Origin: Paludibacter sp.
Lineage (GTDB): Bacteria > Bacteroidota > Bacteroidia > Bacteroidales > Paludibacteraceae
Direction of reading: 5' to 3'
Assembly: GCA_013426815.1 (NCBI GenBank)
Contig: JACDZH010000006.1
Location: 1 to 45,801, forward strand
Length of the DNA: 45,801 nucleotides
The notes under the pieces were generated by a model, which did no database searches, was not told where the DNA came from, and worked only from the letters and a program-made list of their open reading frames with translations. How positions within the stretch are numbered: the stretch's first letter is position 1; each line of letters opens with the position of its first letter. A program made the translations under genes and the position numbers. Positions 6,660 to 24,976 of this stretch are shown piece after piece.

Positions 6660-7541
6660 ATGATACCAACATTATTAGAAAATTTCAATCAAGGTAATAC
6701 TTTGGTATCGGATGGTGCTTGGGGAACATTTTTGCAAGCAAGAGTTTTAAAACCGTGCGAATGTCCTGAGGAATGGAACTTAACTCATCCAACTGAAGTA
6801 TATGATAATGCACTGGGTAATATCAAAGCTGGTGCTGATACCCTCGAAACCAATAGTTTTGGTGGAAATTATTTTAAACTAAAAAGATTCGGATTAGAAA
6901 ACCAGGAGTATGCACTCAACAAAAAAGCTGCTGAAATATCGCGACAAGCTGCCGGTGATGAAAAATATGTGTTGGGTTCAATCGAACCAATAGGTGAAAT
7001 TTTGATGATGGATGATTATACGGAAGAGGAACTTTACGAAGCATTTAAAGATCAATCAATTGCACTATACGAAGGTGGCGCAGATGCAATCAATTTTGAA
7101 ACAATGACTGCGCTCGATGAAGCTACAATTGCAGTTCGGGCAACCCGCGAAAATACGCAATGCGAAGTTATTTGCACCATGACTTTCGATTATCTGCAAA
7201 CCGATGAATTCCGTACCATGATTGGTGTTTCGCCTACTAAAATGGTTGTAGCATTAAAAAGATGCCTGTGAACATATTGTTGGTGCCAATTGTAGCAATG
7301 GAATTGAAGGAATGATAAAAATTACCAAAGAAATTCGTCTTGTTGATAAAGAAATTCCTGTTTTGATTCATGCAAAAGCCGGTTTACCTGTTTTAAAGGA
7401 AATTGTACTGTTTTTCCCGAAACACCCGAAATGATGGCTGCCTTTGCATCCCAATTATCCAAAGCCGGAGCAAATATTATTGGCGGATGTTGTGGGACAA
7501 CACCCGAAGATATTAAAAAACTGGTGGAAGTGCTTAGATAA
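6660..7541 (+). CDS. Homocysteine S-methyltransferase domain protein (MetH N-terminal-like), frame-disrupted as sequenced
   Basis: LLENFNQGNTLVSDGAWGTFLQ, ETNSFGGN, GSIEPIGE. After correcting +A in A5 (7256-7260) and -A in AAA (7395-7397) the reading continues DACEHIVGANCSNGIEGMIKITKEIR..VLIHAKAGLPVLKGNCTVFPETPEMMAAFASQLSKAGANIIGGCCGTTPEDIKKLVEVLR*, including the GGCCGT zinc ligands. Confidence 0.85.
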
Positions 7542-14002: not shown

Positions 14003-15283
14003 TTACAATCCAAATTCTGTTTTAATATCGCTTACTTTATCCAGTTTTTCCCAGGTAAAAAGATCAACTTTAAATGAAATTTCTTTACCATTTCCATCTT
14101 TAAATGTTTTGGTTTTAGTTTCAGGTTCTCGTCCTACATGACCATAAGCAGCAGTTTCTTCGTAAATTGGTAATCGAAGTTTCAATCGTTCTTCAATTTC
14201 TTTTGGACGCATGGTGAATAATTTCTCAATTTTAGTCGCAATTTCACCATCGTTCAATTTAACTTTTGCTGTGCCATAGGTATTAATATACAAATTCATA
14301 GGTTTTGCCACTCCAATTGCATAAGCCACTTGTACCAATACTTCATCGGCAACACCTGATGCCACCATGTTCTTGGCAATGTGACGGGCTGCATACGCTG
14401 CCGAACGGTCTACTTTAGAAGGATCTTTACCCGAGAATGCACCACCACCGTGAGCACCTTTTCCACCATAGGTATCAACAATAATTTTACGACCTGTCAA
14501 ACCAGTATCGCCGTGAGGACCGCCAATTACGAATTTTCCGGTTGGATTTACATGTAAAATGAAATCGTCTTTTATCAGTTGAGCAAATTGAGCATCCAAT
14601 GCCTTCACACGTGGAATTAAAATGTCATTCACATCTTGTCTGATTTTTGCCAACATTTCGTTATCAGCTTCTACCTCAGTTTTATTTGCCGATGGTTTCA
14701 CAAAATCATCGTGCTGGGTCGAAACTACAACCGTATGAACTTTTACCGGTTGGTTGTTGTCATCATATTGGATGGTAACCTGTGATTTTGAATCGGGGCG
14801 TAAATAAGTCATAACCTTGCCTTCGCGACGAATTTCGGCTAATTCCTTTACCAAAGCGTGCGATAAATCTAAAGCTATCGGCATCAAATTTTGAGTTTCG
14901 TTGCAAGCATATCCAAACATCATACCCTGGTCGCCGGCACCCTGATCCATTGGATCAACCCGTTCTACACCCTGGTTAATGTCGCTCGATTGTTCGTGCA
15001 AAGCCGAAAAAATACCGCATGAGTCACCATCAAACTTGTATTCGCCTTTGGTATAACCAATTTTGTTAATTACACGGCGTGCTACCGATTGAACATCAAT
15101 ATATGCATTTGAATGAACTTCGCCTGCAATGACCACTTGTCCGGTGGTTACCAATGTTTCACAGCCTACTTTTGAATTACTGTCCAATGCTAAAAAGGTA
15201 TCCAGTATGGCATCTGAAATTTGATCGGCTACTTTGTCTGGATGACCTTCCGACACCGACTCGGATGAAAATAAATATCCCAT
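14003..15283 (-). CDS. metK: S-adenosylmethionine synthetase
   Basis: [64 protein letters not shown]. Confidence 0.97.
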
Positions 15284-15424: not shown

Positions 15425-15510
15425 GGTGGACTTAATGAAAGGCAGAAAATGCGGGTTGCGATTTAGCATTTTTTTCTGTGGTTGCAAGCAGTCCAAATCT
15501 CTCCACATTT
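15425..15510 (-). promoter_or_regulatory. Candidate SAM-II (SAM-alpha-like) riboswitch in the metK leader
   Basis: Minus strand GUGGAGAGAUUUGGACUGCUUGCAACCAC-AGAAAAAAAUGCUAAAUCG resembles the remembered SAM-II core (GUGG..GAUUUG..GCUUGCA.CCAC..AA..GCUAAA); metK is immediately downstream; possible TACTTTTG -7 box just upstream. Confidence 0.6.
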
Positions 15511-15708
15511 ATTACGCCACAAAAGTACATAAACTATTTTAAATGACAAAATTCCGGGAATAAAATCATATTTTTATGCTCAAGGATGCAGTATTTTATG
15601 TTAAAATACTGCAATATAACAACCAGTGCTACAAAAAAAGAATTAAAAAGGCGATGCTAGCCTAAGTTGCTTGTGCTGGTTGAATGCGTTTTTTTTTGGC
15701 TGTAACCG

Positions 15709-15818
15709 AAAAAAAGCCCCCGTATTGTAAGACGAGGGCAACTTAAATGTTTTCACAATTGATTCCGATAGCTATCGGAACCTTATTGAGATTTGCTTCA
15801 AAAAACTATTTTTTTATC
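15709..15818 (-). ncRNA. tracrRNA-like module C (metK-proximal copy) with distinct terminator
   Basis: Minus strand TTTTTTGAAGCAAATCTCAATAAGG-TTCCGATAGCTATCGGAA-TCAATTGTGAAAACATTTAAGTT-GCCCTCGTCTTACAATACGGGGGC-TTTTTTT. Confidence 0.75.
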
Positions 15819-16065
15819 TTATACAGAATGTTCATAAAAAAAATGCCTCCCACTTATTATGGCGGAGAGGCTTACCAAATGTTTTCACAACGGATTCCGA
15901 TAGCTATCGGAACCTTATTGAGATTTGCTTCAAAAAACTATTTTTTTATCTTATACAGAATGTTCATAAAAAAAATGCCTCCCACTTATTATGGCGGAGA
16001 GGCTTACCAAATGTTTTCACAACGGATTCCGATAGCTATCGGAACCTTATTGTGATTTGCTTCAA
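15747..16065. repeat. 132-bp tandem repeat (about 2.4 copies) carrying the tracrRNA modules
   Basis: atgttttcacaa at 15747, 15879 and 16011 (period 132). Units 1 and 2 differ only at aattgat/aacggat. Confidence 0.95.
15836..15950 (-). ncRNA. tracrRNA-like module B (middle copy)
   Basis: Minus strand GTTTTTTGAAGCAAATCTCAATAAGG-palindrome-TCCGTTGTGAAAACATTTGGTAA-GCCTCTCCGCC..GTGGGAGGC-TTTTTTTT. Confidence 0.75.
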
Positions 16066-16077
16066 AAATTGTACGGC
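15968..16077 (-). ncRNA. tracrRNA module A (cas9-proximal, best anti-repeat)
   Basis: Anti-repeat TACAATTTTTGAAGCAAATCACAA complements repeat TTGTGATTTGCTTTCAAAAATTGTA with a single bulged nt; followed by hairpin, GUUGUGAAAACAUUU and a terminator with T8; TATCTTTG promoter at 16077-16084. Confidence 0.88.
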
Positions 16078-16107
16078 AAAGATAAACAAAAATATTTATT
16101 CTACAAC
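16077..16107 (-). promoter_or_regulatory. tracrRNA promoter: GTTG-N19-TATCTTTG (Bacteroidota consensus)
   Basis: Plus-strand CAAAGATA (16077-16084) and CAAC (16104-16107), 19-nt spacing. Confidence 0.7.
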
Positions 16108-16174: not shown

Positions 16175-19100
16175 ATGAAGAAGATTTTGGGACTGGATCT
16201 GGGTACTAACAGTATCGGGTGGGCATTGGTGAACGAGGGAGAAGGTGAGGGTGAGCAATCATCGATAATAAAAGTTGGTGTAAGAGTAAACCCATTAACT
16301 GTGGATGAACAAACAAATTTCGAAAAGGGAAAAAGCATAACTACAAATGCAGACAGAACATTAAAACGTTCTGCACGCAGAAACCTACAACGCTTGAAGC
16401 TTAGAAAAGAAAACTTAATAGAAATTCTAACTACAAATGGTTGGATAAACTCAGATACTATTCTTTCGGAAAATGGAAATAAAACCACCTTTGAGACTTA
16501 TCGTTTGAGGGCGAAAGCTGCAAGTGAGGAGGTTAGTTTAGAAGAATTTGCGAGGATTCTATTGATGATTAACAGCAAACGTGGCTATAAAAGCAGTAGA
16601 AAAGCAAAATCGCAAGACGAAGGACAGTTGATTGACGGAATGGAAGTTGCAAAAAAACTGTATAATGAGGGAATAACACCAGGACAGTTTGTACTCCAAC
16701 TATTAAAATCAGGTAAGAAATACATCCCAGATTTTTATCGTTCGGATTTACATGCCGAGTTTGATAAAGTTTTTGACAAACAAATAACTTACCATCCTGA
16801 CTTTCTTAATGAAGAATTAAAAGAAGAGTTGCGAGCTAAAAAACGTGATGCTATTTGGGCTATCTGCGCTAAAAAGTTCAAAGAAAATGGTTTCGAATTG
16901 GTCGGCACAAAAAGAAAAGGAAACACTGCCGAACAGAAGGTTGAAAATTACGTTTGGCGAGCAAAAGCACTAACCGAAAAATTGGAATTGGAAGAATTTG
17001 TAATCGTATTACAACAAATCAACTCTCAAATAAACAGTTCCAGTGGTTATCTTGGGTCGATAAGTGACAGAAGCAAGGAACTTTTTTTCAACAAACAAAC
17101 AGTTGGGCAAAATTTAATGGCTCAATTGGACGCAAACCCACACACGAAATTAAAGAACCAAGTATTTTATCGTCAAGATTATTTGGACGAATTCGAAAAA
17201 CTATGGTCAACACAATCTGTATTCCACAAACAACTTACTGATGAATTGAAAACAGAAATTAGGGATGTGGTAATATTCTACCAACGAAAGCTCAAAAGTC
17301 AGAAAGGACTTATTAGTATTTGTGAGTTCGAAAATCGACAAGTTGAGGTTGTAATTGAAGGAAAAAAGAAAACAAAAACTGTAGGCATGAAAGTCTGCCC
17401 AAAATCGTCGCCACTTCTCCATGAGTTTAAAATATGGCAAGTACTTAACAACATACAAGTTACCGACAAGTCTGAGACAATGAGATTTTTAGAACAAGAA
17501 GAAAAAGAATTACTTTACGCCGAACTGAGCATAAAAGACAAATTATCGAAAACAGATGCACTCAAGTTACTTTATAAAAATCCCAAAGAACTGGATTTAA
17601 ACTTTAAAGATATTGAAGGAAACCGCACTCAGGCAGCTTTATTCAAAACATATCAAAGAATAATAGAATTGAGCGGACACGACGAATATGATTTCACCAA
17701 ACTTCCTGCATCTGAAACATTGGAAATAGTACGCTCCATTTTTAACGGACTCAATTATAACACCGACATTCTGAATTTCGATTCATCTTTAGAGGGAAAA
17801 GCATTTGAAAATCAAGCGTTATACCAACTATGGCATTTACTATATTCATTTGAAGGTGACGACTCAATAAGCGGGAACGACATGCTGGTTGCGAAACTCA
17901 CCGAGCTTTATGGTTTTGAAAAAGTATATGCCACTATGCTAGCCAATGTAAACTTCCAAGATGACTATGGCAGTTTGAGTACTAAGGCAATGCGCAAAAT
18001 ACTTCCACATTTAAAAGAGGGGCTCGAATATAGCGCAGCGTGCGTGCTTGCCGGCTATCGCCATTCTAAGAGTTCGCTAACCAGAGAGGAACTTGATAAT
18101 AAAGTATTGAAAAACAAATTAGAAATTCTACCTAAAAAACAGCCTACGCAATCCCGTGGTGGAAAAAATTCTGAACCAAATGATTAATGTGGTAAATGCC
18201 AGCATAGAAGCATATGGCAAACCTGATGAAATAAGAATTGAATTGGCTCGAGAACTAAAAAAGAGTGCTAAAGAAAGAGAAGATGCTACAGCAGCCATAA
18301 GCAAAACAACTGCCGAACATGAAGCATATAGGGCTATTCTACGCAAAGAATTCGGGCTTACCAATGTTAGCCGAAACGATATAATCCGGTACAAGCTGTA
18401 TAAAGAATTAGAATTTACCGGCTATAAAACCTTATATTCAGGAACATACATTTCTCAAGAAAAGTTATTCAGCAAAGAATTTGATATTGAGCATATCATA
18501 CCACAATCTCGCTTATTCGACGATTCCTTTTCGAACAAAACACTGGAGCTACGCAGTATAAATATTGAGAAAGGTAATGACACTGCAATTGATTTTGTTT
18601 TGAAAAAATACAACGAAGATGGACAAACTGCATTTTTAGTCCGAATTGGAGAAATGTACAAAGCGGGTAAATTATCGAAAACCAAGTATAATAAGCTAAA
18701 AATGAAGGGTGAAGATATTCCGAGCGATTTTATAAATCGTGATTTGAGAGACACTCAATACATAGCAAAGAAAGCCAAAAACATATTGGAAGAGCTTGTA
18801 AAAGAAGTGGTTTCAACTACAGGGTCAGTTACAGACCGTTTGCGTGAGGATTGGCAGTTGATTGACGTCATGCAGGAGCTAAATTGGGATAAATATGACA
18901 AACAAGGTTTGACTGAGGTTATCCAAAACCGCGATGGACATAGAATCAAACGCAATAAGACTGGACAAAACGAAACGACCATCGGCACCATGCTATGGAT
19001 GCACTAACCATTGCTTTTACTAAACGAAATCATATTCAATACCTCAACAATCTGAATGCACGAAGCGATAAAGCGGGCAGCATTTATGGCATCGAACAAA

Positions 19101-20404
19101 AAGAACTTTACAGAGATGATAATGGTAAACTACGCTTTAAAATGCCATTAGAAAACTTTAGAAGTGATGCAAAAAGGCACTTGGAGAACACATTAGTGTC
19201 AATCAAAGCAAAGAATAAGGTTGCCACAATAAACATAAATGTTTCAAAAAAACAAAATGGTGTAAATAAAAAAATACAACTAACACCACGCGGACAATTA
19301 CATTTAGAAACAGTATATGGGAGCATTAAGCAGTATGTATCTAAAGAAGAAAAGGTAAATGCTAGCTTTACAAAGGAACAAATAGAGAAAGTGGCAAAAA
19401 AATCATATCGCGAAGCGCTTTTAGCACGATTAGCAGAATTTGATAACGACCCTAAAAAAGCATTTACTGGCAAAAACAGTTTAGACAAGAACCCCATATT
19501 TATTGACGAGGCACATACCACAAAAGTGCCTGAAAAAGTAAAAACTGTTACATCAGAAACAGTTTACACCATACGCAAAGATATATCTCCCGATTTAAAA
19601 ATTGAAAAAGTAATTGATGTCAATATAAGAAAGATTCTCGAAGGTAGACTTAAAGAGTTTGGAAGTGACAGCAAAAAAGCATTCACAAATCTTGATGAGA
19701 ATCCAATTTGGCTAAACAAAGAAAAAGGTATTGCCATTAAACGGGTTACAATAACTGGGATTAGCAATGCCGTATCGCTTCACGAAAAACGAGATAAAGA
19801 TGGAAAGTTGATATTAGATAAAAATGGAAATAAGCAACCCATAGACTTTGTAAATACCGGCAACAACCATCATGTTGCTATTTATCGCGTACCAGTTTTA
19901 GATAAAGATGGGCAAATTGTTTTTGATGAAGAAAATAATCAGAAATATGAATTACAAGAAAATGTAATCTCATTTTTTGAAGCTACTACACGAGTGAATC
20001 AGGGTTTGCCAATTATCGACAAAGAATACAAGAAATCAGAAGGTTGGCAATTTCTATTCAGTATGAAACAGAATGAATACTTCGTTTTTCCAAAAATAGA
20101 AAAACGCGAAAAAGTAAACGAAGAAACTGGTGAAATAACTGAAGAAGAAAATATTTCTTTCAATCCTAAGGAAATAGATTTGCTGAACCCAGACAATTAT
20201 CATTTGATTAGTCCAAATTTATTTAGGGTACAGAAATTCACAATCAAGGATTATTTTTTCAGACACCATTTGGAAACAACTGTTGAAAACAACAATGAGT
20301 TAAAAGGGACTACATGGCTAAGATTTGGTTTAAATGGGATAAACAATGTCATTAAAGTGCGAATTAACCATATCGGTCAAATTGTCGCAGTTGGTGAATA
20401 TTAA
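16175..20404 (+). CDS. cas9: Type II-C CRISPR-associated endonuclease Cas9 (about 1409 aa if repaired; read as three ORFs because of two compensating 1-nt indels)
   Basis: RuvC-I ILGLDLGTNSIGWALV; bridge helix RSARRNLQRLKLRKE; KPDEIRIELARELKKSAKER (RuvC-II); HNH DIEHIIPQSRLFDDSFSNKTL; restored frame gives DWTKRNDHRHHAMDALTIAFTK (RuvC-III). ORFs 16175-18187, 18156-19007, 18995-20404. Confidence 0.93.
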
Positions 20405-20466: not shown

Positions 20467-21099
20467 ATGGAAAAGTTAATTCCAAACCAGAGTTATCATA
20501 TTTACAATCATGCCAATGGGTTTGAAAACGTATTTAATGAGCGTGAAAATTATCGTTATTTCTTGGAAAAGTATAAGGAATATATTGATCCTATTGCCGA
20601 AACGTACTCTTATTGCCTGATGCCCAATCATTTTCATTTGGTGTTGCGAATGCGAAAGCGAGAGGTGATAGAGGAGATAATATATCGAAAGCGCAGCTTT
20701 TCCAAAGTTTCTTTCAACTTTGGAAAAGCTGATATAAGCGACGAGGAAATTGATAAGTATTTATCCAAGCAGTTTTCTAATCTGTTTAGTAGTTACACGC
20801 AGTCGTACAATAAGTTTTTGAAACGTATGGGGTCGCTGTTTGTAAAAAATTTTAAACGAGAACCACTTTTGGATAAAGGGCATTTTATAACCGAAATAAT
20901 GTACACGCACCGTAACCCCATACATCATGGCTTTAGAACAGATTTTGATAAGTGGGAATTCAGTTCGTATTATGATATTACATCTGGTAATAATGAATTA
21001 GTGGAAGTAGATAAACTGCTGAAAATGTTTGGAGGAAAAGAACAATTTATTAATATGCATAGTGAATACTTGAGAGATTGGAAAAGTAAATATATTTGA
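20467..21099 (+). mobile_element. REP-associated tyrosine transposase (RAYT, Y1/IS200-like TnpA)
   Basis: YCLMPNHFHLVLR HUH motif; GSLFVKNFKREPL; YTHRNPIHHGF; associated REP palindromes. Confidence 0.88.
20695..20730. repeat. REP-like palindrome inside the RAYT ORF
   Basis: AGCTTTTCCAAAGTT-TCTTTC-AACTTTGGAAAAGCT: perfect 15-bp stem, 6-nt loop. Confidence 0.85.
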
Positions 21100-21119
21100 T
21101 TTGTTTTCTTTTTCTTTTT

Positions 21120-21180
21120 CAACTTTTCCAAAGTTGAAAGAAACTTTGGAAAAATTGAGAAAGAAATTTTGGAAAAGTTG
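21120..21180. repeat. REP-like palindrome cluster downstream of RAYT (inverted orientation)
   Basis: CAACTTTTCCAAAGTTGAAAGAAACTTTGGAAAAATTG plus extra arm TTTTGGAAAAGTTG; reverse complement is near-identical to the internal palindrome including the asymmetric loop. Confidence 0.8.
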
Positions 21181-21356
21181 AAAGACCAAATAGAGGCTTC
21201 GCTCCCACCAAGTTCAATTTTAAAGAGTTTTTTTGCCCGACAGAATGAACTAAATATATTGATTGGAATTGGAAAAAAAACATAGATTCATAACACTTTT
21301 GGCGTGACACCTTTAGCGTGATACAAATAGTGTGATGAAATTACAGGAAAATAGTT

Positions 21357-22564: not shown

Positions 22565-23479
22565 ATGATTAAACGTACGCTTTATTTTGGTAATCCGGCT
22601 TATCTGAGTATGCGAAATGCTCAGTTGGTCATTCATTTACCCGAAGCCAATGGCATGGACGACCGCACCGGAAACAATACCATTCCAATAGAAGACATTG
22701 GTGTGTTGGTGTTGGATAACAAACAAATCACCATCACTCATGGACTTATTGAGGCTTTGCTGGCAAATAACTGTGCATTGATAAGCTGCGACAGTAGCCG
22801 AATGCCGGTAGGATTAATGCTTCCATTAAATGGAAATACAACACAAAGCGAACGTTTTAAAGACCAGATTGAGGATTCGCTCCCACTCAAGAAACAACTT
22901 TGGCAACAAACCATACAATGCAAAATCGAGAATCAGGCTTACGTACTCAAAACTATGCATGGTGCAATGGTAAAAAATATGTTGGCATGGGTAGCTGAAG
23001 TAAAAAGTGGCGACAGCGATAACCTCGAAGCCCGTGCAGCTGCCTATTATTGGAAAAACATGTTTCCACAGATTCCAGATTTCACAAGAGGTCGCGAAGG
23101 CATTCCGCCCAACAATTTACTGAATTATGGATATGCCATATTGCGCGCCGTAGTGGCACGTGGATTGGTGAGTAGTGGACTGCTGCCGACGCTTGGTATT
23201 CACCATCATAATCGCTACAATGCATATTGCCTTGCCGATGATATTATGGAACCATACCGTCCTTTTGTTGATAAATTGGTGATAGAGATTTTAGAAAGTG
23301 GAGCTGAATTTACGGAGTTAGACAAATCGCTTAAAGCAAAATTACTCAATATTCCGGTTTTGGATGTGATGATAAATGAACAACGAAGTCCGTTGATGAT
23401 TGCAGTAGGATTTACATGCTCTTCATTGGCGAAATGTTATGCGGGTGAAAGCCGAAAGATTTTATATCCAAGTTTTTGA
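22565..23479 (+). CDS. cas1: Type II CRISPR-associated endonuclease Cas1
   Basis: IKRTLYFGNPAYLSMRNAQLVIH; EDIGVLVLDN; LLNYGYAILRAVVARGLVSSGLLPTLGIHHHNRYNAYCLADDIMEPYRPFVD. Confidence 0.96.
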   Translation: MIKRTLYFGNPAYLSMRNAQLVIHLPEANGMDDRTGNNTIPIEDIGVLVLDNKQITITHGLIEALLANNCALISCDSSRMPVGLMLPLNGNTTQSERFKDQIEDSLPLKKQLWQQTIQCKIENQAYVLKTMHGAMVKNMLAWVAEVKSGDSDNLEARAAAYYWKNMFPQIPDFTRGREGIPPNNLLNYGYAILRAVVARGLVSSGLLPTLGIHHHNRYNAYCLADDIMEPYRPFVDKLVIEILESGAEFTELDKSLKAKLLNIPVLDVMINEQRSPLMIAVGFTCSSLAKCYAGESRKILYPSF

Positions 23480-23858: not shown

Positions 23859-24224
<366 letters not shown>

Positions 24225-24391: not shown

Positions 24392-24976
24392 GTTGTTTAT
24401 CAATGTCAAAGATACAATTTTTGAAAGCAAATCACAACCATCTGGTATTGGGGTGGCTATAATAGTGGTTGTTTATCAATGTCAAAGATACAATTTTTGA
24501 AAGCAAATCACAACACATTGTTAATTCCAATAGGAAGAAATAAGTTGTTTATCAATGTCAAAGATACAATTTTTGAAAGCAAATCACAACTTGTAAATCA
24601 TTATTCAGATTTGCCCCACTTGTTGTTTATCAATGTCAAAGATACAATTTTTGAAAGCAAATCACAACGAAGTGCTTAGTGCTTTATTACTTGATGATGT
24701 TGTTTATCAATGTCAAAGATACAATTTTTGAAAGCAAATCACAACATTGAACACAGCGGTTATTTGATTTTGGATGTTGTTTATCAATGTCAAAGATACA
24801 ATTTTTTAAAGCAAATCACAACGCCGGAGTACCGGGCATCAAGAAATTATTAAGTTGTTTATCAATGTCAAAGATACAATTTTTGAAAGCAAATCACAAC
24901 AATCTACAATCGGTTTTGTTGCTGCCTTCGTTGTTTATCAATGTCAAAGATACAATTTTTGAAAGCAAATCACAAC
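24392..24976 (-). CRISPR. CRISPR array: 8 repeats of 47 bp, 7 spacers of 29-31 bp; predicted crRNA strand is minus
   Basis: Repeat (+) GTTGTTTATCAATGTCAAAGATACAATTTTTGAAAGCAAATCACAAC at 24392, 24468, 24544, 24622, 24699, 24776 (one G-to-T at 24807), 24854, 24930. Minus orientation GTTGTGATTTGCTTTC.. pairs with the tracrRNA anti-repeat. Confidence 0.98.

Follow-up and report, generated by a model that had tools for sequence, protein, structure and literature searches.

We analysed a 45,801-nt stretch of DNA from Paludibacter sp. (contig JACDZH010000006.1; the whole stretch is referred to here as the window), in which three units resembling a trans-activating CRISPR (clustered regularly interspaced short palindromic repeats) RNA (tracrRNA) gene stand in tandem at a type II-C CRISPR-Cas locus. 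The host of this tandem tracrRNA locus is an uncultured Bacteroidales bacterium. The units occupy positions 15709-16077 of the minus strand, repeat with an exact 132-bp period and are divergent from the type II-C cas9 gene, the arrangement that an earlier note on this DNA had claimed. The features of the tandem are as follows.

15968..16076, minus strand: tracrRNA unit A, with its anti-repeat at 16073-16050, core AATAAGG...AAACAT at 16051-16011 and terminator T1 at 16003-15968
16077..16084, minus strand: TATCTTTG, the promoter box of unit A (Bacteroidetes -7 type, TAnnTTTG), which precedes AATAAGG by 33 nt
15836..15947, minus strand: tracrRNA-like unit B, with a diverged anti-repeat at 15938-15918, core at 15919-15879 and terminator T1, and without TAnnTTTG
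15709..15815, minus strand: tracrRNA-like unit C, with an anti-repeat at 15806-15786 diverged as in B, a core with CG changed to AA at 15787-15747 and terminator T2 at 15739-15709, and without TAnnTTTG
16027..16044: TTCCGATAGCTATCGGAA, an 18-bp palindrome that replaces the nexus loop ATTAT in unit A; genome-wide, the exact 18-mer is confined to the three units
15895..15912: the same palindrome in unit B
15763..15780: the same palindrome in unit C

Tandem Repeats Finder returned the 132-bp period at 15745-16068 (2.5 copies, 98% matches), and a repeat search found a 132-nt pair at 98% along with a 60-nt unit common to all three copies (95-100%, spacings of 132 and 132). Comparison of the region with itself at an offset of 132 gave exact identity over 160 bp. 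The units differ from one another as the earlier note had described: A and B have terminator T1 in common and differ in the anti-repeat, while B and C, with the diverged anti-repeat, differ within their shared unit at CG/AA (15759-15760), and C ends in T2. Unit B is a hybrid, C-like in its left half and A-like in its right half. A single copy of the word CTCAATAAGGTTCCGATAGCTATCGGAATCCG, which bridges the C-type left and A-type right halves, is present, showing that B-type units exist. At gathering thresholds, Rfam gave no tracrRNA match in the window; its single match was a SAM-II (S-adenosylmethionine) riboswitch (15453-15512), an ordinary one upstream of the S-adenosylmethionine synthetase gene (14003-15283).

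To place the units among their relatives, we searched for the core pattern AATAAGG-N(3,30)-TTGTGRAAACAT in 393 genomes of the order and 396 genomes of the phylum (a few genomes, the window's own included, were in both samples); 105 of the former and 25 of the latter contained it. No adjacent intact core copies were found outside the window in either sample, and the result was the same in a set of 80 Cas9 relatives whose contigs were named. Conservation was counted over 193 distinct cores with the window excluded, none of which (0/193) formed an intact tandem. Only one other fetched locus (L290, G578:C125) had two intact cores; they lie 6.4 kb apart on one strand and perhaps belong to two adjacent type II-C systems. 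The literature that we searched, which left out most subscription journals, held no report of tandem tracrRNA genes.

These roughly 190 homologous tracrRNAs support what the earlier note had proposed about the tracrRNA identity of the units, their divergent position at cas9 and a recent expansion. Like other Bacteroidetes type II-C tracrRNA genes (193 cores; for example, that of the Flavobacterium psychrophilum locus, PMC10309648), those of the window lie upstream of and divergent from cas9, with an anti-repeat that pairs with the 5' end of the repeat, an AATAAGG..CCGTTGTGAAAACAT core, an intrinsic terminator and, in unit A, TAnnTTTG. They differ in that three units stand in tandem, the nexus loop holds a REP-like (repetitive extragenic palindromic) palindrome and two terminators occur in one locus.

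TAnnTTTG is the -7 box of Bacteroidetes promoters (PMC7366714). Of the 193 relatives, 146 had this box 28-36 nt ahead of the core (against 1.1% of shuffled sequences), most commonly at a distance of 31-33 nt, a range that includes the 33 nt of unit A. No TAnnTTTG was found upstream of unit B or unit C, and a scan of the linkers between the units for sigma-70-type promoters returned zero minus-strand sites. Each of the three units is followed by a terminator-like site (four in the region in total vs. 0.4 expected). Both T1 and T2 terminate natural, single tracrRNA genes in relatives, among which terminator type does not track Cas9 similarity: one genome (G004) carries T1 letter-for-letter, though its Cas9 is only 51% identical over the matched part, and the closest relative (G023) has a third terminator type despite a 93%-identical Cas9.

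The crRNA (CRISPR RNA) strand of the array is the minus strand (GTTGTGATTTGCTTTCAAAAATTGTA...). The anti-repeat of unit A has the sense of the array's plus strand, so crRNA comes from the minus strand, as is usual for type II-C. This anti-repeat pairs fully with the repeat, in a duplex of about 24 nt interrupted by one bulge, and its predicted pairing energy against the initial 26 nt of the crRNA repeat, a type of calculation that the earlier note had proposed for each unit, was -30.2 kcal/mol, equal to that in G023 (shuffles, -7.6; standard deviation, 2.3). Units B and C each gave -22.3 kcal/mol with one mismatch (shuffles, -7.1). No repeat fitting the B/C anti-repeat better than the array repeat was found elsewhere in the genome. 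The change that B and C share lies in the conserved end of the anti-repeat: CAC precedes AATAAGG in 187 of the 193 cores, and the form ATCTC of B and C occurs in 0/193. The CCG that is broken in unit C is kept in 191 of the 193.

The nexus sets all three units apart. The stretch following AATAAGG is ATTATTCCG in 168 of the 193 cores, and relatives carry the standard nexus GGATTATTCC where the window's units have the palindrome. As a correction to the module described in the earlier note, the palindrome is no part of a normal tracrRNA. Its 14-mer core, CCGATAGCTATCGG, recurs at 8 further genome sites (reversed control, 0), and a 23-nt form with GG and TCC flanks, GGTTCCGATAGCTATCGGAATCC, is present at two places in G002, suggesting that the palindrome is a REP-like element set in the nexus loop. 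Folding predicts a longer nexus hairpin in all three units (about 9 bp vs. about 3 bp), which Cas9 presumably tolerates. We also considered whether the palindrome was brought by the neighbouring open reading frame (ORF) at 20467-21099, which resembles a REP-associated tyrosine transposase (RAYT; 42.7 bits, below the curated cut-off of 80 bits). This was unsupported, since the palindromes around that ORF are of another family (CTTTTCCAAAGTT..). Palindromes of the form CTTTTCCAAAGTT..AACTTTGGAAAAG lie inside and just after the ORF (window 20467-21190), and a similar one lies downstream of the tracrRNA of G042. Elsewhere in the window's own genome, near the end of contig C112 (L067, 1450-1645), a tandem pair of tRNA-like 5' fragments at a spacing of 96 bp carries TCCCGATAGCTATCGGGA twice, each time at the anticodon-loop position, placing the palindrome core in another RNA hairpin and again in tandem; ARAGORN made zero tRNA calls on these fragments.

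The remainder of the locus holds the following.

16175..20404, plus strand: type II-C cas9 in three pieces (16175-18187, 18156-19007 and 18995-20404), matching NCBIfam TIGR01865 at 3.6e-68 and 4.4e-60
22565..23479, plus strand: cas1, an open frame (TIGR03639, type II)
23892..24224, plus strand: cas2, an open frame (TIGR01573)
24392..24976: CRISPR array of 8 repeats of 47 nt (one substituted) and 7 spacers, with the crRNA strand minus

The presence of cas9, cas1, cas2 and an array together, with no match to Csn2 or Cas4 among the ORFs searched at the locus, agrees with type II-C. Between cas9 and cas1/cas2 lie the RAYT-like ORF, an AAA ATPase gene and a gene for a 23S-intervening-sequence protein. 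Genome-wide, we found 8 repeats, every one of the standard type, and a single cas1. G023, with its one standard tracrRNA, shares the window's array repeat letter for letter, and the repeat has therefore not adapted to B or C. Two features go beyond the earlier note: the replacement of the nexus loop by the REP-like palindrome, and the state of cas9, which encodes RuvC and HNH domains and reads as frameshifted twice in this assembly. Compared with the intact 1421-aa Cas9 of G023, there is an additional nucleotide at about 18134 (A5 to A6) and a missing one at about 18957. In the out-of-frame stretch, codon positions 1, 2 and 3 carry 1, 1 and 11 window-specific substitutions, respectively, which would make any break in cas9 a recent one. 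A homocysteine S-methyltransferase-like gene (6660-7540; three frames read by eye) has a similar pair of apparently compensating single-base, homopolymer-type indels, which raises the possibility of consensus errors in cas9. Given this second gene and the third-position bias, we gave up the firm claim that cas9 is a pseudogene.

We propose, with a probability of roughly 0.7, that the single tracrRNA gene of a type II-C locus was duplicated in tandem, that unit A works and that B and C are promoterless duplicates that are probably not, or hardly, transcribed. Unit A, beside the conserved promoter, would be the working tracrRNA, as it pairs with the crRNA repeat, carries a nexus and ends at T1. 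Units B and C would sit behind A's terminator without a promoter and are altered at otherwise conserved positions; the missing promoter box, the terminators ahead of them and the altered sites make silent duplicates the likeliest description, and of the options that the earlier note had listed, non-functional duplication has the strongest support. We infer both the transcription state of the three units and the order of the duplication events. A T1-ending unit may have come between the promoter and an older T2-ending unit, after which one unequal exchange of exactly 132 bp would have produced the hybrid B; these two steps would explain the order A-T1, B-T1, C-T2. The REP-like palindrome would have entered the nexus loop before or during the expansion.

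Several observations weigh against this proposal. As 47 of the 193 relatives likewise lack TAnnTTTG at 28-36 nt, absence of the box is no proof that B and C are silent, and B. thetaiotaomicron has a second promoter type besides TAnnTTTG (PMC7366714). Unit A itself is without the standard nexus GGATTATTCC, which lowers the case for its function, although a few relatives vary here too. Finally, B and C keep their terminators, core and much of their pairing, far better than shuffles; an old inert copy need not keep such features, and a recent duplication would explain their retention.

Transcription of B and C, from a weak promoter of their own or by read-through of T1, would make them low-affinity or regulatory tracrRNAs, or a reserve titrating crRNA or Cas9. 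Each does retain an anti-repeat, nexus, tail and terminator, and pairs with the repeat well beyond chance, but with TAnnTTTG missing, conserved positions altered and such units present in no other surveyed genome, we regard this as unlikely. The decoy or regulatory role listed in the earlier note retains a low probability. The dosage role that it suggested is improbable, because B and C lack the promoter box of A and of most relatives. Its suggestion that B and C guide a second repeat family is unsupported, given the one repeat type and one cas1 found in the genome; together with the identical repeat that stands beside a standard tracrRNA in G023, these leave B and C without a partner of their own. 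A phage or plasmid decoy origin was also rejected: the palindrome version was absent from the viral contigs searched, no phage matched, and one plasmid matched only weakly and over a single unit. The small CRISPR-Cas-associated RNAs of the scaRNA type (PMC6199352) resemble B and C as extra CRISPR-related small RNA units outside the array, but the anti-repeats of B and C run in the tracrRNA sense, the wrong orientation for scaRNAs.

A broader doubt is that the whole locus is decaying, with Cas9 truncated, no tracrRNA under selection, and the triplication and palindrome neutral debris, which would be compatible with our view of B and C as silent duplicates. The two single-base indels put the HNH-holding stretch of cas9 out of frame, for a predicted product of 670 aa, and three non-cas genes separate cas9 from cas2, yet DNA alignable with the first of these also lies downstream of cas9 in G023. 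The out-of-frame stretch still shows third-position bias in its substitutions, the indel pair at 6660-7540 points to consensus errors, and cas1, cas2 and the array look intact, so that decay of the entire locus seems to us doubtful, if a good deal less so than transcription of B and C. It is very improbable that the tandem is an assembly artefact and that the true locus has one or two units. The assembly is fragmented (499 contigs), and the 160-bp exact repeat exceeds the k-mer sizes of common short-read assemblers, for which reason three should be taken as a lower bound on the number of copies. However, assemblers usually collapse repeats, making three if anything a minimum, and a two-unit locus, in which A and C share at most about 28 identical nucleotides in a row, would lack the B-specific 32-nt word.

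The search of relatives for multiple units that the earlier note had called for thus yielded no intact tandem outside the window, and it did yield a decayed second copy. In the type II-C locus L150 (PLYN01000019.1), an intact T1 tracrRNA with a promoter box is followed 68 nt downstream by a decayed tracrRNA copy with a T3-like end (alignment score, 42 vs. 22 for the best shuffle). L150 resembles the window in having a promoter-proximal intact T1 unit and a promoter-distal degraded unit with another terminator; it differs in that the second copy is far more decayed and in having neither a third unit nor the palindrome. A second tail, AAAACATTYRA, with a different terminator was found about 82-94 nt beyond the core in 7 of the 193 loci (0.3 expected; L044, L078, L111, L216, L232, L256 and L284), and in six of the seven an inverted tail (AAATGTTTC-like / AAATGTTTCAYGAA-like) lies about 38-51 nt after the core, past the tracrRNA terminator. 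These additional tails may be relics, or they may form a small palindromic terminator cassette. Copies of tail, T1 and flank without anti-repeat or core were also seen at L057 and L047 (G026:C138 and G045:C23).

We tentatively suggest, while thinking it on balance improbable, that Bacteroidetes tracrRNA genes turn over by tandem stacking, in which a new unit, or only a new tail with its terminator, is added at the promoter end and the previous unit decays behind it. The window with its three units, L150 with an intact and a decayed unit, and the seven second-tail loci might then be stages of one process. The tandem locus is a natural experiment on which features a tracrRNA needs to retain, with a promoter-bearing copy and two drifting copies side by side, and its nexus loop holds a palindrome in place of a few bases that are the same in nearly all relatives. 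Stacking, if true, would account for a near-invariant core alongside terminators that differ between near relatives, and would show how the terminators of tracrRNA genes can be swapped without change to the core.
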